A DNA stretch of 49,820 nucleotides, taken from contig JACAEQ010000099.1 of NCBI GenBank assembly GCA_013388755.1, positions 1 to 49,820 on the forward strand. Direction: 5' to 3'. Source of the DNA: Chloroflexota bacterium. GTDB taxonomy: Bacteria > Chloroflexota > Chloroflexia > Chloroflexales > Roseiflexaceae. Positions 1-12,024 of the stretch are shown here, one piece after another (position 1 is the stretch's first letter; each line of letters starts with the position of its first letter). The translations under genes were made by a program, and so were the position numbers. A model generated the notes under the pieces. That model had not been told where the DNA came from and searched no databases. It worked only from the letters and a program-made list of their open reading frames with translations.

Positions 1-61
1 CAGGGGGTGCAAAGCCCACCTTCGTGGGCTCAACAGGCCACGGAGGTGGCCTTCGCAAGCG
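1..61 (-). repeat. Interspersed repeat with two adjacent perfect hairpins (copy A)
   Basis: Two back-to-back perfect 7-bp stem-loops are visible: AGCCCAC/GTGGGCT at 13-19/24-30 (loop CTTC) and AGGCCAC/GTGGCCT at 35-41/46-52 (loop GGAG). Read on the minus strand, the order 'GCGAAGGCCACCT' then 'GAGCC..GGCTTxGC' matches a second copy at 46973-47045, so this is an interspersed repeat family and not a local hairpin. No gene is visible in bases 1-129. The element may act as a terminator or RNA stabiliser for whatever lies to the left; that is inference. Confidence 0.6.
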
Positions 62-129
62 CTAGCCGAGGCGTTTACGCCGACGGAAACGGATCATCTG
101 CCGAAATACAACTGTAGTAATAGTTGGAT

Positions 130-230
130 GTCATTGCGCGCGAAGCGAAGCAATCTACCAGCGCGCGAGGAGCTTGCTTCGCTCGCGCTCGCCATGACAG
201 TGACCATCTGGTGTTCGGAGAGGCACTAAC
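130..230. repeat. MITE/REP-like palindromic element ending at a stop codon
   Basis: GTCATTGCGCGCGAAGCGAAGC at 130-151 and its imperfect inverse ending GCCATGAC at 191-198 form a long stem. The adjoining segment 199-230 (TGACCATCTGGTGTTCGGAGAGGC..CTAAC region) is nearly identical to the right end of the element at 23673-23840. The terminal CTAAC at 226-230 supplies the TAG stop codon of the minus-strand regulator gene. The other end is diverged. Confidence 0.65.
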
Positions 231-1176
231 TGGTGCGGATCCGGTCGTAGAGGGCGGTGGTGGCTGGCATAGGGGCGACGCCGAGCTCACGCTCGAGCGT
301 CTCGCAGCAGAGCCTGTACTGGCGCAGCGCCAGCACACGCTGGCCGAGGGCCAGGTAGCTTGTCATGACCTGGCGATGACCTTCTTCACTGCAACTATCG
401 AACTCGAGCAGCTTACGGCCACACTCAAGCGCTGCGGTGTGCCGCCCGGTATCGCCATAGGATTGACCCAGATCCACCAGCAACTCGAGATAGCTGTTGC
501 GCAACCGCTCACGCGGGCCGGTGGTCCACTCCTCGTAGCGGTCATCCATGAGAAAGTCGCCGCGATACAGCGCGGCAGCCACTTCAAAATGCCCGAGTGC
601 CTGCCCATGATCGGCGCGTGCCAGGGCCGCGTGCCCATTCGCAAGCGCGTCATTGAACGCATCAACGTCGGTCCAGATCTCGACGACCGGCATGACGCGA
701 TAGCGTTCGGCAGCAAAGGCGATGAACTGGTCAGCCGCGCCCAGCCCGGCCTCACCCAGGCTGCGGCGCAGAGCATGCAACGTGACGTTCAGGCAATTGC
801 GCGCCGCTTCGGGCGTTGAGTCGCGCCAGAAGAGATCGAGGAGCTGATCGCGATGGACCGGTGCAGCCCGGTGGTACACGAGATACTTGAACAATGCTTC
901 GCTCTTCTTGCGCCAGCCACCAAGCGACACACCACCATAGAACGCCTCGCATGCGCCGAAGAAATGCACCCGTAAGGCATCAGCAGCCGACGGCGCTTCA
1001 TGCGTCGCGACCTCGATCCCGGCGCGTGCCCGGTACACGCGTTCCAGCGTATCAATCAGCGTCGCCGAGGCTCTGTCGCCCAGGTGGTCGAAAAGCACGT
1101 GCGCCTGTTCGAGATACGCGAGCACCTGGAGGCAACTCGCGACAGTGCCCGGCTCGAGACGTTGGAGCTGAGACAT
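226..1176 (-). CDS. BTAD-domain (AfsR/SARP-like) transcriptional regulator
   Basis: A 316-residue soluble protein, probably a DNA-binding regulator. Roughly residues 85-165 form an OmpR-type winged helix: it begins with LRVHFFGACEAFYGG, followed by WRKKSEALFKYLVYH, RDQLLDLFW and an ARNCLNVTLHALRRSLG recognition-helix region. Residues about 180-316 fit the bacterial transcriptional activator domain, an all-helical TPR-like module (VDAFNDAL, YRGDFLMDDRYEEW, SYGDTGRHTAAL, ALRQYRLCCETLERELG). The start at 1176 (MSQLQRLEP) is chosen because the longer 353-residue form adds a compositionally odd 37-residue leader, and AGGAG lies about 16 nt upstream of 1176. The first 80 residues match no family I can name. 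There is no ATPase or TPR extension, unlike large AfsR proteins. The stop codon lies in the end of a MITE-like element. Target genes are unknown. Confidence 0.85.
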   Translation of the reverse strand: MSQLQRLEPGTVASCLQVLAYLEQAHVLFDHLGDRASATLIDTLERVYRARAGIEVATHEAPSAADALRVHFFGACEAFYGGVSLGGWRKKSEALFKYLVYHRAAPVHRDQLLDLFWRDSTPEAARNCLNVTLHALRRSLGEAGLGAADQFIAFAAERYRVMPVVEIWTDVDAFNDALANGHAALARADHGQALGHFEVAAALYRGDFLMDDRYEEWTTGPRERLRNSYLELLVDLGQSYGDTGRHTAALECGRKLLEFDSCSEEGHRQVMTSYLALGQRVLALRQYRLCCETLERELGVAPMPATTALYDRIRTS

Positions 1177-1723
1177 CAACGATTGTCTTCTACTCCTGGT
1201 ATGCAGGCCAATAGCCGATATCAGCTTCGCTGGATGGAGCGCTACGGACGGGCAGGATGTGCAACACAACAGGCCGGGCATACCCACCTGTCAGCCGCGT
1301 GGAGTAACCGGCGCGTCGTGCTGTCACGTAATGCCGGGAAACGACTCAGGCGGGCGATGTGTACTCGATCACCAATTCGCCGCTCTGCGCAACACATTGC
1401 TCCCGGATGGCCCTGGCTGCCGCCACTGTTTCATCCACCGCTATGCATCTGTAGGCGAGATTGGCTTCTGCGTTGTGGTCGCGATGATGAGGAGGGTAGA
1501 CAACCCATGCTGAGATGAGGCGCAATATTGATTTGAGACACGAGCTGTGCGAAGAGACCCTCGGGTGTAGTATAGCACCGCTGTCAACGGCGGGGGAGCA
1601 TGGCAGATTGCAGATTACCACAATAAGAAATAGACGGCATTCCAGAGGCGTGTGAACAATGACCGATAGAACCCGGTGAGAGCAACGAATCGCTCCGCGC
1701 GGTATGCGCTGGTTCCAGAACGT
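1177..1723. other. Intergenic stretch, possible small minus-strand ORF at 1346-1621
   Basis: 547 bases lie between two minus-strand genes. A minus-strand ORF at 1346-1621 (91 codons) has a gene-like C-terminal half (VDETVAAARAIREQ, GELVIEYTSPA), but no family is recognised and its N-terminal half looks random, so it may be a remnant. A GCAGATT heptamer is present twice in tandem at 1603-1616. TTGACA occurs at 1587-1582 (minus) and TGCTATACT around 1577-1569, but they are too close together to be one promoter. Nothing else was seen. Confidence 0.3.
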
Positions 1724-2332
1724 TTACGCCGGACGCGGCAACGTAAAGACCTCGCCGAGTCGCGCATACTCATCGCCGCTCAGGCGCGCCACCGGTCGCA
1801 GACGCTGTGGATCGATGCTACCATCGGCGCGCAGCAGATCACGGCGAACATGGAAGCGCACCACGCGCCCGATAATCATTGTGTAGCTCGTTTCCTCGAC
1901 CGGCACGATCTGGGTCACCCTGACTTCCATCGCAACCGGCGCGGCTGTAACACGCGGCGGGCGAACGTCGACCGATGGCGACGCTGCGAGGCCGGCACGC
2001 TCGAACTCACTATCGCCGTATGCCCAGTCCCCTGAGGTGATATTCATCTGCTGGACCAGATCTTCATCAACAACGTTCAACACCATTTCGGCGACTTCCT
2101 GAACGTTGCGCAGCGTGTCTTTGATGGCGCCAGCGCGACGGCTGACGGAAATCATGACGAAGGGTATCGGCCCACCCACCGCATTGAAAAACGAAAATGG
2201 CGCCAGGTTGACCGAACCGTCAGCGCCAATGGTCGAGGCCCAGCCAATCGGGCGCGGCACGACGCTGCTGACCAGCAGCCGGTATGCATCGCGCGGTGTC
2301 ATCGCTTCAGTGACGAACGTTAGCATGTCCAT
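1724..2332 (-). CDS. Flavin reductase-like (flavoredoxin-type) FMN-binding protein
   Basis: A 202-residue cytoplasmic protein of the flavin reductase-like/flavoredoxin family, which binds FMN in a split-barrel fold and passes electrons from NAD(P)H or a partner. Visible hallmarks are the N-terminal PRPIGWASTIGADGSVNLAPFSFFN segment (residues about 27-51), typical of the family's FMN-binding strand, followed by FVMISVSR and TLRNVQEVAEMVLN. The start at 2332 has AGGA 7 nt upstream (CCAGGAACTCGCC); a second Met two codons in is possible. Family members often serve as 'conserved protein/domain typically associated with flavoprotein oxygenases', but no oxygenase gene is adjacent, so the partner is unknown. 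It is separated from the next minus-strand gene upstream (yceI-like) by 328 bases. Confidence 0.88.
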   Translation of the reverse strand: MDMLTFVTEAMTPRDAYRLLVSSVVPRPIGWASTIGADGSVNLAPFSFFNAVGGPIPFVMISVSRRAGAIKDTLRNVQEVAEMVLNVVDEDLVQQMNITSGDWAYGDSEFERAGLAASPSVDVRPPRVTAAPVAMEVRVTQIVPVEETSYTMIIGRVVRFHVRRDLLRADGSIDPQRLRPVARLSGDEYARLGEVFTLPRPA

Positions 2333-2660
2333 GGCGAGTTCCTGGATGTCGCAGGCTTACAAGACGGGGGCCGCGCCACCGCGCACATCCCGTTCGTTCC
2401 ACAATGGACGCGGTGGCGTACCAGCAGGGTGGCCTGGCGGGCGGCACGCCCTCCAGCGTCAAGCATCCGGCGGTGGGAAGGCGGTCGCAACGCGGAAATG
2501 AACGCCGTCCCGCCGGCGGGCGGGCACTGGCATGCGCCCGGCTGGCCGATTGCGCGCGTAACCACGCTACCCCAGTTACTGACATGAGGTACGCAATGGC
2601 GCAGATGGTACATCTGTAGAGCCCGCGACAGCGTTAATGAACAGGCACCGTCCCGTTCGC
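2333..2660. other. Intergenic stretch, no gene seen
   Basis: 328 bases between two minus-strand genes. Short ORFs occur in several frames but none has a recognisable motif or a good ribosome binding site. A GC-rich partial palindrome (CCGCCGGCGGGCGGGC) lies near 2509-2525. No tRNA or riboswitch was recognised. Confidence 0.4.
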
Positions 2661-3215
2661 TCAGGCAACCGCCTCGGCTGTGGCAGGCTGCTCGACCTGT
2701 TTGACCAGTTCAAGCTCGATATTGATGGTAATTTCCTCGCCAACCAGCACGCCGCCGGTCTCAAGCGCCACGTTCCAGGTCAACCCCCAATCCTTACGGT
2801 TGATCGTTGTTGTAGCGCTGAAGCCCGCGCTGATCGTCCCCCACGGGCTCTTCGCCTGGCCATGATACTCGACATCCAGCACAACCTCGCGGGTCACATC
2901 GCGAATGGTGAGATCACCAGTCAGGCGGGCGCGGTCACTGCTGATCATATCAATGCGCCGGCTGGTAAACGTGAGATAGGGGTACTGATCGGCATTCAGG
3001 AAATCGGGCGAGCGTAGATGCGTATCGCGGCTCGCATCTCGGGTATTGATGCTCGCGGCCTCGATCTTCACCGACACGGCCGAGAATTCGGGATGCGCTT
3101 CATTGCCGTCAATCGTGCCTTCGAATCGCTCGAAGCGCCCACGCACCTTTGACAACATCATGTGGCGCGCGCTGAACGTAATCTCCGAGTGGGACAGGTC
3201 GATCTGCCAGGTCAT
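2661..3215 (-). CDS. YceI-family (lipocalin-like) polyisoprenoid-binding protein
   Basis: A 184-residue protein of the YceI family, a lipocalin-like beta barrel that binds isoprenoid chains in characterised members. Key features are TWQIDLSHSEITFSARHMMLSKVRGRF at the N-terminus, then EFSAVSVKIEAASINTRDASRD, HLRSPDFLNADQYPYLTFTS and LTGDLTIRDVTREVVLDVEY, which are the standard YceI signatures in the standard order. The start is 3215 because GAGGAG lies just upstream (GAGGAGAATGAAGCA). The longer frame adds 35 residues with no signal peptide character. No signal peptide is present, so unlike E. coli YceI this is predicted cytoplasmic. Function here is unproven; it is the first of three minus-strand genes running toward position 226. 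Confidence 0.93.
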   Translation of the reverse strand: MTWQIDLSHSEITFSARHMMLSKVRGRFERFEGTIDGNEAHPEFSAVSVKIEAASINTRDASRDTHLRSPDFLNADQYPYLTFTSRRIDMISSDRARLTGDLTIRDVTREVVLDVEYHGQAKSPWGTISAGFSATTTINRKDWGLTWNVALETGGVLVGEEITINIELELVKQVEQPATAEAVA

Positions 3216-3315
3216 TGCTTCATTCTCCTCGTGAACCATGTACTCACACCGACAGGGTAATCCACTGGCGTAAGCACTAGCGTGAACAGGCGCGTAAACA
3301 CCGGCACGCCTGTGA

Positions 3316-3321
3316 TACAAT
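3316..3321 (+). promoter_or_regulatory. Candidate -10 element for the FHA-EVE gene pair
   Basis: TGATACAAT gives an extended -10 (TGn + TACAAT at 3316-3321) 28 nt upstream of the ATG at 3349, with the ribosome site GAGGGAG in between. No good -35 is seen. Confidence 0.4.
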
Positions 3322-3348
3322 CAACCGGTACCTCGAGGGAGTGCAGCA

Positions 3349-4341
3349 ATGCAGCCACGGATCTACCTGGGGCAAACGCCGGATACGGTGCGCGAACGTG
3401 TCGATCTGCGCGAGCAGGCGCTGGCGCTGGCGCAGCGGGTGCGCCAGTCGCATGCCGACGGGTTGTGCGCGGCATTGTTCGGCTTCACAGCGGGCGCACA
3501 GCCGCCACTGGCGCGTATTGACCTGCTGATCGTGCGCGCCGAGGCCGTGATCGTTGGCGCGCTACGCGCCTATGCTGGCCCGATCGATGCGCCTCCCGAA
3601 GGCGCCTGGCGTGAACGGACGAGTGGCCAGTTGATCGTGGAAGCGGACGGCGCGCATCCATTGCACCGGTTGCGCGCGCAACGCGAGGCGGTTCAACTCA
3701 GCCTCAATGCAGCGGCTGAACGCCTTGGTGTGGCTGGACACGATCCTCGCCCCTTCAAGCGCGTCATCGGCGCACTGATCTGCGTCCCGGCGCTCCATCC
3801 CGAGTCGCGCATCTCGCTCGACGTTGACGATCACCGCGATGGGCTGAAGGTCTGCGGCTTCGATGAACTCGCCGGCGTGGCGGCCATGGCCCACAGCGGT
3901 GTTTCGCTTTCAGACGAGGCGATTCACACGATCGCCGCTGGCCTGTTTGGCGGGCGACTCTGGCACGATGGAGCGCGCCTGCTGTTCGATCTGGCGCCAC
4001 CGCGGTTGCAGCTACGGATCATGCTGCCCGCCGGCGGCCATACGATCGTCCCACTACCGGAAGGTGGCGCCATCATCGGGCGGCGGCGATCAGCACGGCG
4101 TTTTGAGCGCCGCGTTGTGATCAGTGGCGACGACCTGGTGTCGATTGATCATCTGCAGCTGAGCTACGATGACGATCCGGCCATCGTGACCATACGCGAC
4201 ATGAGCAAGAACGGTACCTGGCTGACGTCGCCCGGCGGGCCGGTCGAACACATCCGCGGCGAGACGCGTACGATCGCCGTGGGCGCACGATTACGCCTGG
4301 GGATGACCGAGGTACTGCTGGAAGAGGCGCGCAATGAGTAA
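3349..4341 (+). CDS. FHA-domain protein with N-terminal NERD-like (nuclease-related) region
   Basis: A 330-residue cytoplasmic protein. The C-terminal 100 residues are a forkhead-associated phosphothreonine-binding domain: AIIGRRRSARR, the serine/histidine block SIDHLQLSYDD, then IRDMSKNGTWL, all classic FHA positions. The N-terminal half (residues about 50-130: ARIDLLIVRAEAVIVGALRAY, then ..W....SGQLIVEADGAHPLHRLRAQREAV) resembles the NERD nuclease-related fold. However, the expected E-x-K of a PD-(D/E)XK active site is replaced by A-L-R, so it may be non-catalytic. This assignment is a pattern-level inference. The start is supported by CTCGAGGGAGTGCAGCA. The last 8 bases overlap the start of the EVE gene, so the two are probably translated together. 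Confidence 0.8.
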   Translation: MQPRIYLGQTPDTVRERVDLREQALALAQRVRQSHADGLCAALFGFTAGAQPPLARIDLLIVRAEAVIVGALRAYAGPIDAPPEGAWRERTSGQLIVEADGAHPLHRLRAQREAVQLSLNAAAERLGVAGHDPRPFKRVIGALICVPALHPESRISLDVDDHRDGLKVCGFDELAGVAAMAHSGVSLSDEAIHTIAAGLFGGRLWHDGARLLFDLAPPRLQLRIMLPAGGHTIVPLPEGGAIIGRRRSARRFERRVVISGDDLVSIDHLQLSYDDDPAIVTIRDMSKNGTWLTSPGGPVEHIRGETRTIAVGARLRLGMTEVLLEEARNE

Positions 4342-4756
4342 ACGATACTGGCTGCTAAAAACCGAGCCTGACTGTTATAACTGGACCGACCTGGAGCGCG
4401 AGGGCCAGACGATCTGGGATGGGGTGGCAAACAATGTGGCGCTGAAGCACCTGCGCGAGATGCGGCCGGGCGATACGGCGTTGATCTACCATACTGGCAA
4501 TGAGCGTCAGGCCGTCGGGCTGGCGGAGATCGTCAGTATGCCCTACCCCGATCCGCAGGGCGGCGACGCAAAACTCGTCGTGGTTGACGTGCGCCCACTG
4601 GCGCCGCTGCCGCGCCCGATCACCCTCGCGGATATCAAGGCTGACCCTGCCTTCGCCGACTTCGCGCTGGTGCGCCAGTCGCGCCTCTCGGTCGTGCCGG
4701 TCACGGAGGAACAGTGGCAGCGATTGCTGGCGATGGCGGGGACCGCTGTACCATGA
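4334..4756 (+). CDS. EVE-domain protein (THYN1-like)
   Basis: A 140-residue single-domain EVE protein, a PUA-like fold whose relatives bind modified bases or RNA. Diagnostic segments: YWLLKTEPDCYNWTDLEREG at the N-terminus, WDGVANNVALKHLREMRPGDTALIYHTGNERQAVGLAEIV, and the C-terminal DFALVRQSRLSVVPVTEEQWQRL. The length is normal for bacterial THYN1-like proteins. The start ATG overlaps the FHA gene by 8 bases, with GGAAGAGG as ribosome site. EVE domains are often encoded next to restriction or modification-sensing genes; here the only partner is the FHA/NERD-like protein. Nothing in the sequence shows the ligand. Confidence 0.93.
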   Translation: MSKRYWLLKTEPDCYNWTDLEREGQTIWDGVANNVALKHLREMRPGDTALIYHTGNERQAVGLAEIVSMPYPDPQGGDAKLVVVDVRPLAPLPRPITLADIKADPAFADFALVRQSRLSVVPVTEEQWQRLLAMAGTAVP

Positions 4757-4861
4757 ACACCATCACCCGTGCCATCAGCCGCCGGTATGGCTCCCGCTGA
4801 CCTGTCGGGGCATCAGCGCAATGGCGACCATGACAGAATCTGCGAGTGAAATCTGCAATCG

Positions 4862-6403
4862 CTATGGCGCCTGTTCGGTTGCGATGCCGACCCGCCCGGC
4901 AAGGCTGGTAAACGTCGCACGCGCCGCTTCTGACGTAAAGCCCCACGCGATCAGTGTGAAATAATTCGATAGCCAGTCGCTACCGAACGTCGGGTTCTGC
5001 ACATAGAGCTCGTTATACCCCGTCCAGCCCCAGAGGGTGATCAGGATCAGAAATTGCGCCAGGCGAAAACCGTTGATCCGTACCCTGGCCCATGGGAAAC
5101 CTGCCTTCGCCCCTACCACCTGTGACGCGTGATCTTCAGCGCGCGTCGCGGCCACCACCGCTGCGCTGGCGTGCTGCGGCGCAACATCTTCAACAACCAT
5201 CGCCGCCCGCGCTGCCGGCTGGCGTGGCGTGCCCAGCAGCGCTGATTCGGGCGCACCTTGCGCCAGATGCGCCTTGAGGGTTGCATTCAGATCCCCGATC
5301 TCCTTCGCCAATTCATCAAATGCCGGGCGACTGTCGCGTGGTTCCGGTAGAAGCGTGGCCACCCGCCGCGCCAGCTGGTCAATCTGTGCCTGATAAACAC
5401 GCTTCGCTTCTGCATTGAGCGTTGTTGCATCAAGGATTTTTCTCAGGTTCCTGTGCCGCGTATCGATCTGGAGAAAGTCGTTGATCTGGGCGATGACGGT
5501 ATTCAGCTTCTCCTGCATGTCATTCAGGCTGGTCACCTGGGGCGCGCCTTCTTCTATCTCGCGCAACCGGCGATGTACTTCGGCCGCATATACCGGCGAA
5601 CCCTGCGCATCAGGTTGCAACATCGCGCGCGCGCGCGCAAACTGCACCGAAAGCGCGCGCCACGACTCGAGCCAGCCGATCCACCGGGCCAGTAACTCGT
5701 CGGCCTCGTCGTACTGCGCGCGCGCCTCAGCGACCTTACCGGTCTGCAGGCGCGCCACCGCGAGGCTCAACTGCTGGCGCAACATGCGCCGCACCGGGTC
5801 AGGAAGATCGGGCGTCGCAGTGACACGCGCCCCCAGGCGCTCCAGCTGGACCGCGAGATCGTCGCGCTGCCGCCCGCCTCCCAGGTAGGTGGATATCAGT
5901 GCCGCGATTGCCACGCCGCCAAGCAACGCAAAGAACGGCGGCCAGGGCGCGTCTTTGATCGTCACCGCCACCGGAATCTGCAACGAGGCGGGAACGCCGT
6001 CGGCATCATAATTGAGCCAGATCGTGCCGTTGTAGCCCCCACTGCGGGCGTTGCCGAAATCAATCGTCACCGTCAGCGTCAGCGGTTTGCCGGCCTCGGC
6101 ACGCTGCGGCAGCGACCCGACGCTGACCAGACCACTGATCGTCGCGGCATTGTCGGCGCGCACGAAATCGGAGATCAAGACACTGGCGCCGGAGATTGCT
6201 GTCGTGGCGCTGATGAAGACGAGCCGTTGCTGCGGCGGATCGCCCAGTGTGCCGGCGACCGTGATGCTGGCCGGGTTGGCGGCGGCGGTCTGGGCGCGAA
6301 TTGTGTCGGGAACGAGAGACAGCAAGAGGAGCACGACAAGCGCCGTAAGCACTATCGTGGCCAGCGCGACCGGCAGTGCGGGAACGCGGAGGAGATGCTT
6401 CAT
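4862..6403 (-). CDS. Unknown multi-domain membrane protein
   Basis: A 513-residue protein I cannot assign to a named family. Residues about 8-35 are a hydrophobic signal/anchor ending near IRAQTAAA. Residues about 40-150 are a likely extracytoplasmic beta-sandwich (SITVAGTLGD, KPLTLTVTIDFGN, YNGTIWLNYDADG), resembling ester-linked or CARDB-type surface modules in rhythm only. A transmembrane helix follows (PFFALLGGVAIAALISTYLGGG, about 153-174). Then comes a long charged helical region (about 180-400, coiled-coil-like), and finally two hydrophobic C-terminal segments (LAQFLILITLWGWTGYNELYV and YFTLIAWGFTSEAARATF). The topology suggests an outer sensing or adhesion part, a cytoplasmic helical part and a returning membrane anchor. 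The start at 6403 has AAGGAG about 9 nt upstream. It is convergent with the EVE gene. Confidence 0.8.
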   Translation of the reverse strand: MKHLLRVPALPVALATIVLTALVVLLLLSLVPDTIRAQTAAANPASITVAGTLGDPPQQRLVFISATTAISGASVLISDFVRADNAATISGLVSVGSLPQRAEAGKPLTLTVTIDFGNARSGGYNGTIWLNYDADGVPASLQIPVAVTIKDAPWPPFFALLGGVAIAALISTYLGGGRQRDDLAVQLERLGARVTATPDLPDPVRRMLRQQLSLAVARLQTGKVAEARAQYDEADELLARWIGWLESWRALSVQFARARAMLQPDAQGSPVYAAEVHRRLREIEEGAPQVTSLNDMQEKLNTVIAQINDFLQIDTRHRNLRKILDATTLNAEAKRVYQAQIDQLARRVATLLPEPRDSRPAFDELAKEIGDLNATLKAHLAQGAPESALLGTPRQPAARAAMVVEDVAPQHASAAVVAATRAEDHASQVVGAKAGFPWARVRINGFRLAQFLILITLWGWTGYNELYVQNPTFGSDWLSNYFTLIAWGFTSEAARATFTSLAGRVGIATEQAP

Positions 6404-6444
6404 GTGTCCGGCTCCTTGCCATGCTGCGGTTGACGACATGCGCA

Positions 6445-6450
6445 ACTATA
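6445..6450 (-). promoter_or_regulatory. Candidate extended -10 for the 513-residue membrane protein gene
   Basis: On the minus strand TGCTATAGT (TGn + TATAGT) lies about 42 nt upstream of the start at 6403. The -35 region is poor, as expected for an extended -10. The same TGCTATA motif appears ahead of other genes in the window. Confidence 0.4.
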
Positions 6451-6476
6451 GCATGGATTATGGGGATCGACGTGGA

Positions 6477-6504
6477 ACGTTCAATGTTCAACGTTGAACG
6501 TTGA
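6477..6504. repeat. Heptameric tandem repeat, also palindromic
   Basis: Four 7-bp units: ACGTTCA, ATGTTCA, ACGTTGA, ACGTTGA. The run is also an imperfect inverted repeat centred on CAACGTTG and could form a hairpin. It lies between the divergent membrane-protein and DUF3048 genes, about 60 nt before the latter's start. Confidence 0.75.
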
Positions 6505-6564
6505 GCGTAGCTATGGTACCATCTGCCGATGCTGGCAGGATCCATTGTTACAAACGAGGAGCGC

Positions 6565-7560
6565 ATGAAGCGATCGTCTGGTATCCGTATTCCGATGATA
6601 CTCATGGGGTTTGCGGTTCTTGTGGCGCTTGCCGTGCCCGTGGCCGCCGCGCCGGAACGCGCACCATACCCGCTGGAGCGTGGCACGGTCACGCGCCGCC
6701 CCTATGTGGTGATGATTGATAACCATCCGCGCGCCTACCCGCAGACCGGTCTCGACAAGGCGGCGCTGGTGTTTGAGGCGCTGGCCGAGTTCGGACTGAC
6801 GCGCTTTATGGCAGTCTACCAGCCCGGGGTTTCGCCCGAAGCCGCATCGATCGGGCCGGTGCGCAGCGCCCGGCTCTACTTCGTGCGCTGGGCAATGGGA
6901 CTGCGTGGGATGTACATCCATGCCGGCGGCGCTCCCGACGCACTGACGCTCGCGCGCCAGGCGCAGGAAATCATTGACGTGGACGCGCTGAGTCGCTCCG
7001 GCGGCGGCTATTTCACCCGTGTACGCACCCGCAGCGCACCACACAATCTCTACACCAGCACGGCACGCCTTGACCAGGCGTCGGCAACATCCGGCACCCC
7101 CGATGTGAACGACCCTGAACTCGGGTTTCTCATCAAAGACGGCATCCCGCCCGAACAGCGCCCCGCCGGCCAGTCCATCACCTATTACTTCCTCTACAAA
7201 CAGGACGATGCCGGCTGGACATATGACCCTGCCAGCAATGGCTATTTGCGGCTGCGGCGCGGCAAGCCGGCCGTTGATGCCGCGACCGGGAAGCAGCTGT
7301 GGGCAAGTAATGTAGTGGTCATCGAAGTGCAGGAGCGCCCGATCCCCGGCGATACCAAGAACCGTATCGAACAGGATGTCATCGGGTCCGGGCCGGGGGT
7401 ACTGTTCCAGGATGGCATGGCGATCGACATCACCTGGCGCAAGGAGACTGCCGCTGCACCATTGCGGTTCTACCTGGCAAGCGGTAGCGAGGCGGCGATG
7501 AACCCGGGGCAGATCTGGATTGCCGCGATTCCGAAGCTGGCCAATCTGACCAGGCGGTAA
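6565..7560 (+). CDS. DUF3048-family exported protein
   Basis: A 331-residue protein of the DUF3048 family (YerB-like), whose biochemical role is not established; family members are usually exported. Residues about 5-27 are a signal/anchor (IPMILMGFAVLVALAVPVAAA). The mature part shows family blocks: RPYVVMIDNHPRAYPQTGLDKA, VFEALAEFGLTRFMAVYQ, IGPVRSARLYFVRWAMGL, YIHAGGAPDAL, then a C-terminal half with YDPASNGYLRLR, NVVVIEVQ, DVIGSGPGVLFQDG and ITWRKE. The start at 6565 is preferred because GAGGAG sits 4 nt upstream; the ORF opens 12 codons earlier without a site. No lipobox cysteine is seen, so it is probably membrane-anchored or secreted. It converges on the osmoprotectant importer genes with a 16-nt gap. 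Confidence 0.88.
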   Translation: MKRSSGIRIPMILMGFAVLVALAVPVAAAPERAPYPLERGTVTRRPYVVMIDNHPRAYPQTGLDKAALVFEALAEFGLTRFMAVYQPGVSPEAASIGPVRSARLYFVRWAMGLRGMYIHAGGAPDALTLARQAQEIIDVDALSRSGGGYFTRVRTRSAPHNLYTSTARLDQASATSGTPDVNDPELGFLIKDGIPPEQRPAGQSITYYFLYKQDDAGWTYDPASNGYLRLRRGKPAVDAATGKQLWASNVVVIEVQERPIPGDTKNRIEQDVIGSGPGVLFQDGMAIDITWRKETAAAPLRFYLASGSEAAMNPGQIWIAAIPKLANLTRR

Positions 7561-7576
7561 TGATCGCGCTGCTGGC

Positions 7577-8209
7577 CTACCCGGTATGCGTCGCCTGCGC
7601 GGCGCGCCGTTCGAGGAGCCAGAAGAGACCGTTGGCGCCGATTGCCAGTGCGCTCACCGCAATCGCGCCGGCGATGATCTTCTCGGGATTACTGCTGCGC
7701 ACGCCGTCGAACAGGAGTAATCCCAGCCCACCGGCATTGATGAAGGCCGCAATCGTGCCGATGGCGATGATCGACAGGGTTGCGACGCGCACACCTGCCA
7801 GCATGATCGGCAATGCCAGCGGCAGTTCGACCTGCCGCAGGATTTGCGCGCCTGTCATTCCCATACCGCGCGCCGCTTCAACAATCGCCGGATCAATGCC
7901 GGTCAACCCGACAACAACGTTCCGCACCAGGACGAGCTGGGCATAAGCGACCAGGGCAATCACCGCCGGGCGCAGCCCCAACCCGGTGAACGGGATAAGC
8001 AGGACAAACAGCGACAGGCTGGGGATGGTGTAAATGATGCCCAGCACTCCCAGCACTATGTTGCGCAACTGCGCCACGCGGGCGCACACTACTCCCAGCG
8101 GCAGCGCAATCGCCAGCGCCACCGCCAGGCTCACCCCCACCATCAGCACATGCTGGCCGAAGAGGCTCGCCACGTAGGGCAGATTGTCAATCAGGTAACG
8201 CACGTTCAC
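7577..8209 (-). CDS. Osmoprotectant (glycine betaine/choline-type) ABC transporter permease
   Basis: A 210-residue inner-membrane permease of the OpuCB/OpuCD/ProW type. It has about six hydrophobic segments and the EAA-loop motif EAARGMGMTGAQILRQVELPLALPIM that contacts the ATPase, plus GTIAAFINAGGLGLLLFDGV near the end. The ORF extends to 8290, but the extra N-terminus is an arginine-rich shadow of the ATPase gene's end. GTG at 8209 (VNVRYLIDNLPYV) gives the usual length and a 23-nt overlap with the ATPase gene; GTG at 8203 is an alternative. It is the last gene of the four-gene operon, and a second permease is the first gene, so the channel is probably a heterodimer. Confidence 0.87.
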   Translation of the reverse strand: MNVRYLIDNLPYVASLFGQHVLMVGVSLAVALAIALPLGVVCARVAQLRNIVLGVLGIIYTIPSLSLFVLLIPFTGLGLRPAVIALVAYAQLVLVRNVVVGLTGIDPAIVEAARGMGMTGAQILRQVELPLALPIMLAGVRVATLSIIAIGTIAAFINAGGLGLLLFDGVRSSNPEKIIAGAIAVSALAIGANGLFWLLERRAAQATHTG

Positions 8210-9161
8210 CCCGCGCAAGCGCGGCAGCAATGGACGCCGGGGTAACACGGCCAACGTTCTGCCCATCGGCGACAACCGGCAGCGATTCACCGCCGGCTTC
8301 CAGCACGCGCCCGAGAGCGATACGCAGATCGTCGGTGGGCGTCAGCGCGCTGCTGCCGTTGCCGTAACCCTCATTCACCGCAGGTGGCCTGAGCGCGTCG
8401 GCGACCCGTAACAGACTGAGGCGGCGCAACACATCATCGGCGCTGAGGAGATCACGGACGAAGTCGTCGGCAGGATGCGACAGGACCGCCAGCGGCGTAT
8501 CGAACTGTACCATGCGCCCGGCACGCATGATGAGGAGCCGATCCGCCAATCGCAGCGCCTCGTCAACATCGTGCGTCACAAACAGGATGGTTTTGTGGAG
8601 GCGCTGCTGGATGCGCAGCAACTCGTCCTGCAGGCGCGCGCGGGTGATGGCGTCAAGCGCGCCGAATGGCTCGTCCATGAGCATCAGGCCGGGATCGGCG
8701 GCGAGCGCGCGCGCCAGGCCAACGCGTTGCTGTTCGCCGCCGGAAAGCTGGCGCGGGTAACGGCGGCGATACGCGCGCGGCAGCTCGACCAGGTCAAGCA
8801 GTTCGTCAATCCGCACCTCGATGCGCCGCCGTTCCCAGCCGAGCAACTGCGGCACAACCGCGATGTTTTGTTCGATACGCAGGTGCGGGAACAGGCCGGT
8901 CTGCTGGATGACATAGCCGATACGGCGGCGCAGTTCCGTCGCCGGGACGGCGCGGGCGTCTGCACCGTCAATCAGCAGACGCCCGGAGGTTGGCTCATAC
9001 AGCCGGTTGATCATCTTGAGCAGCGTCGTCTTGCCGCAGCCTGACGGGCCGAGCAGCACGACAAACTCGCCCGGCTCGATACGGAACGATACGCTGTCAA
9101 CCACCGGGCGCGCCTCGCCCGGAAAGGTCTTGCTGAGTTGCTCGGCAACAATCGAGGACAT
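8187..9161 (-). CDS. Osmoprotectant ABC transporter ATP-binding protein with C-terminal CBS-like region
   Basis: A 324-residue cytoplasmic ATPase that powers uptake of quaternary amines such as glycine betaine. Walker A GPSGCGKTT (about residues 38-46), Q-loop YVIQQTGLFPHL, signature LSGGEQQRVGLARAL, Walker B LMLMDEPFGALD and H-loop LFVTHDVDEAL are all intact. After about residue 240 there is an extension ending TPTDDLRIALGRVLEAGGESLPVVADGQNVGRVTPASIAAAL, which reads as one CBS domain. OpuCA and ProV carry CBS modules that sense ionic strength; here a single half-pair is apparent. The gene lies 8 nt after the binding-protein gene without a good ribosome site, so coupling is likely, and it overlaps the next permease. 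Confidence 0.93.
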   Translation of the reverse strand: MSSIVAEQLSKTFPGEARPVVDSVSFRIEPGEFVVLLGPSGCGKTTLLKMINRLYEPTSGRLLIDGADARAVPATELRRRIGYVIQQTGLFPHLRIEQNIAVVPQLLGWERRRIEVRIDELLDLVELPRAYRRRYPRQLSGGEQQRVGLARALAADPGLMLMDEPFGALDAITRARLQDELLRIQQRLHKTILFVTHDVDEALRLADRLLIMRAGRMVQFDTPLAVLSHPADDFVRDLLSADDVLRRLSLLRVADALRPPAVNEGYGNGSSALTPTDDLRIALGRVLEAGGESLPVVADGQNVGRVTPASIAAALARGERALPD

Positions 9162-9169
9162 GGGCCGCG

Positions 9170-10123
9170 CTACTGAATGATCCCCTGCTGTTGCAGGAAT
9201 GCACGCGCCACGTCGGCGATCTCCTTCTTCTCCGGCCCATCCACCTGCCAGTTCAGGCCCGACATCACATCGTTGGTCAGCAGTGGTGCGAGCCGGTTCA
9301 GCGTATCGGCAATCGCCGAGTTGGCCGCCAGCGTATCCTGCCGGATGACCGGCGCGATCTGGTAGATCGGGTAGTAGTTCTTATCATCCTGCAGGAGCGC
9401 CAGCCCGAGGCCGTTAATCTGGCCGTCGGTACCGAAGGCGACCACGACATCAATATCGCCCTTCGTCAGCGCCTCGTAGCGTAGACCACCGGTGTCAAGC
9501 TGGACGAAGTTATCGCCGGTCAGGGCCGGATCGAACCCGTAGGCTGCGACGAGCCCTTTCGTATCTTCACGCTCCGGGAACTCCGGCGGCCCGCCAAGCT
9601 TCAACTCGCCCGAACGCGCCGCAAGATCCGAGTAGGTCTTGATACCCAGCTCCTCAGCACGCTGCGCCGTCATCGCCAGGGCATTGGTATTGTTGAACGG
9701 CGAGGGAGTAAGCCAGGTCAGCCTGTACTGTTCCTCATACCCTTTGCGCACGGCCTCCAGTATACCGTTGGCATCAGCAATCGGCGCCTGCTTCAATACC
9801 TCGAGCAAACCGGTTGATGTATATTCCGGATAGAGATCGATGTCGCCGTTGACCAGCGCCGTATGCGCCACCGGCGTCGCACCGAGGTTGAACTTACGTT
9901 CGACGGGAATGCCGGCGTTTTCGAGTACCAGGGCGTACATTTCCGCCACCAGAATCGCCTCGGTGAAGTTCTTCGAGCCGATGCGAATCGGAGCTCCGGG
10001 CGGCGCGGCCGCCTGTGGTGCAGCCGTCGGCTGTGGCGGAGCAGCAGGCGCGCCACAGGCGGCCAGGAGCACGCCAAGCAACGCGACCAGCGCAATCAAC
10101 GAACGTTTGTGCAGTATCACCAT
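9170..10123 (-). CDS. Glycine betaine/choline-type substrate-binding lipoprotein (OpuAC/OpuCC-like)
   Basis: A 317-residue periplasmic-type binding protein of the OpuAC family. The N-terminus is a lipoprotein signal (LIALVALLGVLLAACG, Cys about residue 23) followed by an Ala/Pro linker. The binding domain starts IRIGSKNFTEAILVAEMYALVLENAGIPVERKFNLG, the standard opening of this family, and includes DLYPEYTSTGLLEVL and VVAFGTDGQINGLGLALLQDDKNYYPIYQIAPVIR. It captures quaternary amine osmolytes and hands them to the two permeases. AAGGGA precedes the ATG. It lies 33 nt after the first permease. Exact ligand cannot be decided from sequence alone. Confidence 0.93.
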   Translation of the reverse strand: MVILHKRSLIALVALLGVLLAACGAPAAPPQPTAAPQAAAPPGAPIRIGSKNFTEAILVAEMYALVLENAGIPVERKFNLGATPVAHTALVNGDIDLYPEYTSTGLLEVLKQAPIADANGILEAVRKGYEEQYRLTWLTPSPFNNTNALAMTAQRAEELGIKTYSDLAARSGELKLGGPPEFPEREDTKGLVAAYGFDPALTGDNFVQLDTGGLRYEALTKGDIDVVVAFGTDGQINGLGLALLQDDKNYYPIYQIAPVIRQDTLAANSAIADTLNRLAPLLTNDVMSGLNWQVDGPEKKEIADVARAFLQQQGIIQ

Positions 10124-10156
10124 TGTTCCCTTCTACTTTCGCGGTAACGCCAGACG

Positions 10157-10810
10157 TTACGCAGCCATGCCGGCATTGGATGAGAGCCGGCGTTGCACCA
10201 GAGCAAGCGCCAGTTCCACAGTAAGCGCCAGCAGCGCCACAGGAATGGCGCCAACGAGCATGATACGCGTATCGAACAGGGCATAACCGCGCGTGATGAA
10301 GATACCAAGCCCACCACCACCAATAAACGCAGCGAGCGTGGCGCTGGCGATCACCTCGACTGCCGCGCTGCGAACGCCGCCAACGATCGAGGGTAAGGCC
10401 AGCGGTAGTTCAACCCGCCACAGGATCTGCGCGGCCGTCATCCCCATGCCACGCGCTGCCTCACTCACGCCACGGTCGACATTCCGAACGCCGGCGTACG
10501 CGGCGATCAACACCGGCGGCACTGCCAGCAAGGTCAATGCCACCAGCGCCGGTAATGCGCCGATGCCAAGATAGGGTTGTGCAAGGAACAACACCGCAAG
10601 GCTGGGGATCAGGCGCAATGCGCCAAAAGCGTTGATCGCCCATTGCCCGGCATGTGCCCGGCGCGCTGCCCAGATGCCGACCGGCAACCCGATGGCCGTG
10701 CCGATAAGCAATGCGGCAGAACTGATCCAGACGTGCTGTGTTGCGGCGGCCCAGAAACGTGATTGGTTGGCGAGAAAGTACTCGTAGGCCTCAAGCAGAA
10801 GTGCAAGCAT
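10157..10810 (-). CDS. Osmoprotectant ABC transporter permease (first gene of operon)
   Basis: A 217-residue inner-membrane permease paralogous to the one at 7577-8209. EAARGMGMTAAQILWRVELPLALPSIVGGV is the EAA loop; ATLAAFIGGGGLGIFITRGYALFD follows. Hydrophobic helices cover most of the chain. The start at 10810 (MLALLLEAYEYFLANQ) gives family length with GGGA upstream; the longer ORF to 11032 adds 74 residues of non-membrane, cysteine-rich noise. Transcribed first, it is followed by the binding protein, ATPase and second permease, the same four components as OpuC/OsmU importers but in a different order. Confidence 0.88.
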   Translation of the reverse strand: MLALLLEAYEYFLANQSRFWAAATQHVWISSAALLIGTAIGLPVGIWAARRAHAGQWAINAFGALRLIPSLAVLFLAQPYLGIGALPALVALTLLAVPPVLIAAYAGVRNVDRGVSEAARGMGMTAAQILWRVELPLALPSIVGGVRSAAVEVIASATLAAFIGGGGLGIFITRGYALFDTRIMLVGAIPVALLALTVELALALVQRRLSSNAGMAA

Positions 10811-11194
10811 GCTATCCCGGTCCGAGCCAACCGAGCAAGGCGCATCGTAGCGTTTGCCCGATCTATATGGCGCGCCGGCGAGGATGGAGCAAGAGCATGT
10901 GGCGCAAGAACCTGTGTCAGTATAGCACACGTATGCGATATGCGCATGGGTGAGAGGTGGCAAGGTAGGAAGGAGGTGACGAAACAAACTGCGGAATGAA
11001 CAGCTTCCGGGAAGCGTGCGCCACGGCACCACCCCTGCTCACCGGCTCCCGGCGCGTGCATTCGGGCCGGACGCCCATCATTAGCCACCCACACATCCAC
11101 TTCTCGATGAGACACGTATGCAACAGTGCAGGAGCTTGCATATCCCCGATAATAGCGAAACGAAGAACGTGATGAAGAAAGGGAGAACCTGAAC
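10811..11194. other. Divergent intergenic region
   Basis: 384 bases separate the importer operon (minus) from the DUF4397 gene (plus). A candidate minus-strand extended -10 is at 10919-10924. No ORF with a recognisable product and no riboswitch could be identified. Control of both transcripts is expected here. Confidence 0.4.
10919..10924 (-). promoter_or_regulatory. Candidate extended -10 for the osmoprotectant importer operon
   Basis: Minus-strand TGCTATACT (TGn + TATACT), about 110 nt upstream of the first permease start. The -35 is weak. It shares the TGCTATA pattern seen before other genes here. Confidence 0.33.
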
Positions 11195-11935
11195 GTGATT
11201 CGCCGTTCATTGACCATGATCGTGACCGTATTTGCGGTCGTACTGGCGTCGCTGCTGGTGGTCGTTCCGGCACAGGCTGAGGAAGCCGCCAGACCGGCGC
11301 AGGTGTACATCATTCATGGCATTCCTGGCCGCGACCTGGGTCTGAAGCGGAACCGGCTGCCGGTTGATATCGCCGTCAACGACGTATGCACACTGACGAA
11401 CTTCAAGTTCCGCCAGGTCGTTGGCCCCGTCGAACTGCCGGAAGGCACGTACAACATCAAGATCTCGCTCGCGAACAAGGAGCACCCGTGCAGCAATGCG
11501 CCTGTGATCGAGGCCGATGTGCCGTTCGCTGCAGGTGAGAGCGCGACCGTCATTGCGCACCTGAGCGAAGCTGGCGCACCGACCGCCTCGAAGTTCGTTA
11601 ATGACCTGACCCCGGCTGCGTCTGCTGAGAATGGCGTGGTTGTGGCCCGCCACACTGCTGCTGTGCCGACGGTTGACCTGCTGGTGAGCCTCGAAGGTTC
11701 CGACGAGGTGCTTGCGACAATCGCAGGCGTATCGAATGGTGCCCAGGCCCGCGCCGAACTGCCGGTCTACACGAAATTCAGCGTCGGGTTTGCGCCCACT
11801 GGCACGACGACCGTGGTTGCCTCCGCAACCATCGAGGCGTGCGAGGATGAGATCGCGATCTATCACGCCGTCGGTTCGCTGACCAACAACACCTTTACCA
11901 TCATCCCGCTCTACATTCCGATCCCGCAGCACTAG
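11195..11935 (+). CDS. Secreted DUF4397-domain protein
   Basis: A 246-residue exported protein. A clear signal peptide (MIRRSLTMIVTVFAVVLASL.., cleavage after AQA near residue 28) precedes a DUF4397-type beta domain: VYIIHGIPGRDLGL, LPVDIAVND, LPEGTYNIKISLANKEHPCSNAP, FAAGESATVIAHL, with two further beta segments (VDLLVSLEG, YTKFSVGFAPTGTTTVVASAT). The family is found in surface and extracellular proteins and has no assigned activity. Four cysteines remain after cleavage and could pair in disulfides. The GTG start is supported by GGGAG 9 nt upstream. It is monocistronic, followed by a strong hairpin at 11960-11990. Confidence 0.87.
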   Translation: MIRRSLTMIVTVFAVVLASLLVVVPAQAEEAARPAQVYIIHGIPGRDLGLKRNRLPVDIAVNDVCTLTNFKFRQVVGPVELPEGTYNIKISLANKEHPCSNAPVIEADVPFAAGESATVIAHLSEAGAPTASKFVNDLTPAASAENGVVVARHTAAVPTVDLLVSLEGSDEVLATIAGVSNGAQARAELPVYTKFSVGFAPTGTTTVVASATIEACEDEIAIYHAVGSLTNNTFTIIPLYIPIPQH

Positions 11936-11959
11936 GACAAAAAAGGCATCACTCTCAGG

Positions 11960-11990
11960 CACGGTGCGGCGGCACAGCCACCGCACCGTG
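11960..11990. terminator. Hairpin between convergent genes
   Basis: A perfect 10-bp stem CACGGTGCGG/CCGCACCGTG at 11960-11969/11981-11990, extended inside by GGC/GCC. On the minus strand a T-run (TTTTTT from the plus A-run near 11939-11945) follows 14 nt after the stem; on the plus strand there is no T-run. It probably ends transcripts from the minus-strand peptidase gene and may serve both. Confidence 0.6.
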
Positions 11991-12024
11991 TCACAACACA
12001 AGACCCCTACCGAGTCGTGTCCGG

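Follow-up and report, generated by a model that had tools for sequence, protein, structure and literature searches.

An FHA protein with a NERD-derived, predicted inactive N-terminal domain, encoded beside an EVE protein in one family of Chloroflexota

The stretch of DNA analysed here, hereafter the window, is 49,820 nucleotides long (contig C21 of a 5.08 Mb genome in 145 contigs) and carries two overlapping genes on its forward strand. The first encodes a protein that joins a domain derived from NERD (nuclease-related domain) proteins to a forkhead-associated domain, and which we call the FHA protein; the second encodes a small EVE protein, of a family whose members bind modified bases in DNA or RNA. 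Their features, and what supports each, are the following:

3349..4341, forward strand: 330-aa pseudo-NERD/FHA protein (open reading frame, Pfam FHA, 12 full-length relatives, AlphaFold2 model)
3349..3978, forward strand: NERD-derived domain, residues 1-210, predicted to be catalytically dead (hhalign to intact NERD proteins, model of residues 1-215, weak nuclease fold matches)
3520..3522, forward strand: codon of D58, the retained acid of D...ExK (D in 13/13 FHA proteins and 32/32 intact NERD relatives)
3559..3567, forward strand: codons of A71-L72-R73, at the E-x-K site of intact relatives (E in 0/13 and K in 0/13 FHA proteins, both in 32/32 intact relatives)
4075..4302, forward strand: FHA domain, residues 243-318 (Pfam PF00498, 24.5 bits against a cut-off of 20.7)
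4320..4327, forward strand: GGAAGAGG, Shine-Dalgarno-like, a possible ribosome-binding site of the EVE gene lying within the FHA gene (from the sequence)
4334..4341, forward strand: ATGAGTAA, the 8-nt overlap of the two frames (open reading frames and sequence)
4334..4756, forward strand: 140-aa EVE protein (Pfam PF01878, structural relative 2gbs)

The anatomy of this pair is solid. A preliminary description of the window had reported an 8-nt overlap between an FHA and an EVE gene, and both the overlap and the two domain assignments are borne out by the frames at 3349-4341 and 4334-4756 and by Pfam (24.5 against 20.7 bits for FHA, 150.7 against 23 bits for EVE). Judged by comparison with homologues, both genes are real: the FHA protein has 12 full-length relatives, at 36-66% identity to the window protein, and dN/dS values of 0.09-0.35 among 7 of the 13 FHA proteins, rough figures in which many dS values exceed 1 or approach saturation. 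The 8-nt overlap is unique to the window; in six relatives the frames overlap there by 4 nt (ATGA), and four others have gaps of at least 11 nt, measuring 11 nt (L009), 57 nt, 17 or 80 nt, and up to 219 nt, with start choice uncertain. From the overlap we infer that the two genes are translationally coupled, and they would constitute a two-gene operon.

The N-terminal 210 residues of the FHA protein are homologous to NERD proteins, a common descent that we base on profile comparison. The window protein has no match to Pfam NERD (PF08378) at E<=1 and no NERD match in NCBIfam, so profile comparison was needed to show the homology. At BLAST level, these residues resemble longer proteins in related genomes, two of which were scanned and match Pfam NERD at 56 and 37.5 bits; all three longer relatives in alignment A2 keep the D, the E-L-K and NPxxQ. 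Profile-profile comparison with three intact NERD proteins of the same order covers residues 1-218 at 98.3% (E 1.4e-14), and comparison of 11 FHA proteins with 32 intact NERD proteins gives 98.5% and a score of 103, where none of 50 column-shuffled decoys exceeded 21.7, and the reversed profile and the FHA half gave 12.5 and 13.1. Neither the FHA protein nor the alignments of the intact NERD proteins and of the N-terminal domain drew anything useful from sequence searches of the PDB; three PDB matches of the FHA protein, at E 0.53-0.55, look like chance.

What has become of the catalytic site? In a joint alignment of the 13 FHA proteins (window included) and 32 intact NERD relatives, the D is kept throughout, whereas the E, present in every intact relative, is replaced in all FHA proteins (A 6, M 2, L 2, V 1, I 1, T 1), as is the K (R 8, H 2, L 2, Q 1), and the Q survives in only 2/13 against 32/32. 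In the window protein, D58 is retained and the residues of E-x-K are replaced by A71 and R73. The intact relatives were chosen through an N-terminal motif and not through E-x-K; the window genome's own copy (L105), together with L100, L104, L106, L107 and L113, does not carry that selection motif and yet keeps E-x-K. The proposal that the N-terminus resembles a NERD with a degraded E-x-K was right in substance, with a profile score of 103 against 21.7 or less, and E and K in none of the 13 proteins. Among seven close FHA proteins, dN/dS is 0.09-0.28 for residues 1-120 and 0.09-0.26 for residues 121-215, compared with 0.12-0.35 for the FHA part; given this purifying selection, the domain looks like a maintained pseudo-nuclease, constrained rather than decaying.

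AlphaFold2 models both the whole FHA protein (mean pLDDT 90.1, pTM 0.85) and residues 1-215 alone (pLDDT 90.9, pTM 0.89) with high scores. Fold matches of the N-terminal model are weak (Foldseek E 0.019 or worse, VIA Z 7.5 or lower), with none at E<=0.001 and none with Z >=8, and are mostly nucleases; many are entries for MspJI, Can2, Hjc, McrC, SfsA and EndoMS, which we take to be PD-(D/E)XK proteins, and Schlafen proteins, Upx and a phage-nucleus protein are also among them. By the preliminary description's own criterion, a predicted N-terminal fold of an unrelated kind would have spoken against it; this did not come about, the weak matches of the model being mainly nucleases. In a tree of the N-terminal domain (55 rows), for which 13 loci were examined for other NERD proteins and L088, L091, L094 and L103 gave no sequence, the 13 FHA proteins form one clade; branches of 7.7 and 9.9 changes per column are too long for this tree to tell where the FHA protein came from.

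The C-terminal domain is of a more familiar kind. For the whole model, Foldseek ranks solved FHA domains highest (2lc1, E 1.6e-7; 3gqs_B, E 3.0e-7, TMt 0.79), those of Rv0020c, CT664 and MDC1 among them. Residues R245, R246, S265, H268, N288 and G289 are invariant in 13/13 FHA proteins; they fall in the GR, SxxH and NG motifs that we take to contact phosphothreonine, and the domain would be expected to bind it. The window genome has 23 kinase matches, of which 22 exceed the cut-off, as well as 25 FHA matches, which makes phosphothreonine signalling plausible in this cell; among the seven scanned neighbours between 226 and 9161, Pfam finds no kinase. The modification sensor linked to Ser/Thr kinases that the preliminary description suggested is thus possible.

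As for the EVE protein, it matches the Pfam profile from 1 to 145 of its 145 positions, a complete domain. Its closest solved relatives, 2gbs (E 1.1e-33) and 1zce, are single-domain proteins; these are Rpa0253 and Atu2648, presumably of alpha-proteobacterial origin to judge from their names. W28 of the window EVE aligns with W26 of 2eve, and Y82 of 2eve sits in a loop to which no residue of the window EVE aligns; W26 and Y82 are the aromatics of the 2eve base pocket named in PMC7897488. The window EVE could be a housekeeping-type reader, with a modified base as its putative target. EVE occurs in 35 of the 40 relatives and the full FHA protein in 13, leaving 22 in which EVE stands without its FHA partner; one genome (G013) has EVE solely as part of an 824-residue frame. 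EVE is the more widespread partner and probably the older of the two. An EVE tree (31 rows) has 8 of its 28 inner branches well supported and neither unites nor separates paired and unpaired EVE proteins; with such weak support and no such grouping, we draw nothing from it. At one locus (L043, G032:C25:41457-41849) the EVE frame contains a single in-frame TGA, a broken gene or an assembly error.

The preliminary description had asked whether the pair is conserved across Chloroflexota, and the answer is divided: the pair recurs and is adjacent in 11 of its 13 carriers, but the full FHA protein was found in one family only. With all candidates scored, full-length FHA proteins occur in 13 of 26 genomes examined from the window's family, the window included, and none was found outside it in the samples searched. 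In a survey of 400 genomes of the phylum, with at most five first-look candidates scored per genome, all seven full-length matches belonged to the window's family, and the other matches covered the NERD-like part alone or the FHA part alone. A scan of contigs for two peptide patterns, which missed the known carriers G001 and G003 and may omit records near the window genome, returned 10 loci, in records titled Roseiflexus, Roseiflexaceae, Chloroflexi or Chloroflexota; the closest counterparts of the FHA protein in named records come from metagenome assemblies of Roseiflexus, at 61-66% identity.

Within the family, 11 of the 13 FHA carriers, spanning five genera, have the EVE gene immediately downstream in the same orientation, and 7 of these 11 adjacent pairs overlap by 4 or 8 nt. 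In one of the two exceptions (G004) the genes share contig, order and strand and are about 3.8 kb apart, with two opposite-strand frames between them; in the other (G006) they are on different contigs. Flanking genes were compared between positions 1-12000 of the window and 10 other stretches, a comparison in which longer spurious frames displaced the EVE genes of the window and L127 as well as the FHA gene of L124; the positions of the window's EVE gene and of L124's FHA gene come from separate searches. Flanking genes in common with the window appeared in the two g4 stretches examined, and none appeared in one stretch each of g2, g3 and g6. All 13 FHA carriers have EVE, a co-presence that is not significant (chance 0.12). 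Overall, a link between the FHA protein and EVE is likely.

How might such a pair work? Our best explanation, which we favour with a little less than even confidence, is a family-restricted operon in which a pseudo-NERD/FHA adaptor acts together with a housekeeping-type EVE reader. The NERD domain, of PD-(D/E)XK type, would have lost two catalytic residues and been kept for binding or dimerisation, joined to a working FHA domain. A cellular Ser/Thr kinase would phosphorylate a partner on threonine, and the FHA domain would dock on that phosphorylated partner, whilst the dead nuclease domain would hold nucleic acid or pair with another subunit. EVE, made in step with the FHA protein through the gene overlap that would keep the amounts of the two proteins matched, would read a modified base, probably in RNA or in the cell's own DNA. 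This mechanism, which we infer from the parts, presupposes that the proteins are soluble, that nucleic acid is bound and that the FHA protein and EVE interact physically. We could speculate further that a phosphorylation signal gates the reading of base modifications, the dead-nuclease/FHA adaptor placing EVE under Ser/Thr-kinase control whilst its NERD-derived pseudo-nuclease holds nucleic acid; in this stronger form we consider the idea unlikely.

Joint function has its difficulties. EVE is non-adjacent in 2 of 13 carriers, the overlap has been lost in four genomes and EVE is found alone in 22 of 40. These points lend themselves to the chief rival, in which the two genes have a promoter in common and no function in common: the FHA adaptor and EVE would act separately, and their adjacency would be an old arrangement that has not yet been broken. 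In keeping with it, the genes are adjacent in one family only and not in two of its carriers, up to 219 nt can separate them, and EVE usually occurs without the FHA protein; the same order and strand in sampled g2, g3 and g6 loci, where no flanking gene is common with the window, speak against it. We regard such separate functions as possible, if on the doubtful side.

The intact NERD proteins could offer another partner. These are mostly 410-471 residues long, are spread through the order with intact D, E-x-K and Q, and have a membrane-like segment (recognised by eye) and an unannotated C-terminal part. The window genome has one such paralogue (G000:C97:35048-35356, locus L105). Perhaps, then, the pseudo-NERD/FHA protein regulates this intact paralogue, with its membrane-like segment, by forming mixed dimers under phosphothreonine control, with EVE incidental. 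The similarity spans the first 210 residues, beyond the stretch covered by Pfam NERD, and a NERD match is found in 12 of the 13 carriers, the window genome's paralogue among them, as this reading would have it; however, the remaining carrier (G019, 82% complete) has none, and 38 of 40 relatives have a NERD match of some kind, which makes the co-presence of NERD and FHA proteins uninformative. Regulation of the paralogue strikes us as distinctly unlikely. Two further loci with NERD genes deserve mention in their own right. At L128, a 300-aa frame on the minus strand lies in the same 15-kb stretch as an intact NERD gene, with membrane-like N-terminal stretches and a C-terminus that looks, by eye, like restriction-endonuclease-like (Mrr-type) domains. 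The other locus is on contig C134 of G027, a genome that belongs to another family and has no FHA-protein match; there, EVE lies at 1159 and a NERD protein at 11400, about 10 kb apart, which may be chance.

The pair had also been described as the most defence-like in the window. This finds no support: against PADLOC, neither the FHA protein nor the EVE protein matches any family at E<=1, and most of the neighbours are ordinary. Those scanned in the window are a BTAD regulator, a flavin reductase, YceI, a Pfam-less protein, DUF3048, a transporter permease and an ABC ATPase, and those scanned elsewhere include a hexapeptide-repeat protein, a glycosyl hydrolase-like protein, a phytochrome histidine kinase and an NAD-binding protein. 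In PADLOC searches with nine neighbours, only the ABC ATPase and one weak match (E 0.0018) came up. The ATPase (8190-9161) matches nine PADLOC models, the best being mad3 at 1.5e-32; we set these matches aside because Pfam identifies the protein as an ABC transporter (129.7 bits) and it lies beside a transporter permease. We take the neighbours' PADLOC matches for shared ATPase parts and chance, and a scan within about 11 kb revealed nothing like a defence island around the two genes. A gene on the minus strand (4862-6445), convergent with that of EVE, encodes a 527-aa protein with membrane-like ends and adjoins EVE in two g4 stretches too; this protein has no Pfam match and accounts for the one weak PADLOC match (4865-6445, E 0.0018).

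An anti-phage sensor, in which EVE would detect modified phage DNA and the FHA protein relay the signal, could appeal to the EVE domain of the restriction enzyme VcaM4I, which senses modified DNA according to PMC7897488, to the use of the term NERD, or nuclease-related domain, in phage-defence papers, and to the likeness of the neighbouring ABC-type ATPase to PADLOC ATPase models such as mad3. Against this stand the lack of PADLOC matches for either protein, the assignment of that ATPase as a transporter component by Pfam, the single weak match among the eight other scanned neighbours, the presence of EVE in 35 of 40 relatives with closest similarity to single-domain EVE proteins, and the loss of two of the three D...ExK residues. 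We hold such a sensor to be very improbable; the pair looks like a signalling arrangement rather than a defence system. Least credible of all is an N-terminal domain that is still a nuclease, R73 and other acids replacing E-x-K, for although D58 is invariant and R occupies the K site in 8 of 13 proteins, the E site is A, M, L, V, I or T in all 13 and the K site is L, H or Q in the other five.

The domains themselves are known; a NERD-FHA fusion with EVE as its operon partner, here in one family, was not found described in open PubMed Central. There, the EVE domain and the FHA domain were not found together, nor did any paper there combine three or more of NERD, FHA, EVE domain and Roseiflexus. 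The one paper naming both EVE domain and forkhead-associated, on CoCoNuTs (PMC11090510), is unrelated to the pair, and neither FHA, NERD nor Chloroflex- occurs in the main text of a survey of EVE contexts (PMC7641849). According to this survey, what single-domain EVE proteins do has for the most part been deduced from the genes around them (PMC7641849), and a conserved FHA partner for EVE would be a new kind of lead. If our preferred reading of a joint adaptor and reader is true, base-modification reading would be linked to bacterial phosphothreonine signalling, a connection not found in print in open PubMed Central, and the FHA protein would show how, in nature, a NERD nuclease can become a binding domain, the same genome still offering an intact relative to set beside it.

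How, then, does the pair compare with known systems? Nearest at hand are the Chloroflexales NERD proteins of the L105 type, with which the first 210 residues align along their whole length; unlike the window protein, these keep D, E, K and Q, and they carry a membrane-like stretch (seen by eye) and another C-terminal part in place of the FHA domain. With phosphothreonine adaptors of the FHA type, such as Rv0020c/FhaA, GarA and OdhI, the window protein has the FHA fold and motif residues in common, whereas its own FHA domain is joined to a dead nuclease domain and adjoined by an EVE gene. A precedent for the N-terminal half is SmdA of Staphylococcus aureus, a NERD-like protein that is still functional with several of the most conserved NERD residues missing, as set out in the accessible text of PMC9040797; the likeness lies in a NERD-like domain that has lost conserved residues, and the difference in that SmdA is membrane-anchored and concerned with cell morphology and division, with an FHA domain not mentioned in that text (PMC9040797). 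For EVE, PMC7641849 describes slow-evolving proteins of Proteobacteria that sit in conserved operons, a likeness to the window EVE, whose closest solved relatives are themselves proteobacterial; there, the partners are cytochrome c-related or ZapA/ZapB-6S RNA genes, in contrast to an FHA protein here (PMC7641849). As EVE genes of beta- and gamma-proteobacteria adjoin cell-division genes (PMC7641849), SmdA and the proteobacterial EVE neighbours together draw a parallel with cell division that is suggestive only.
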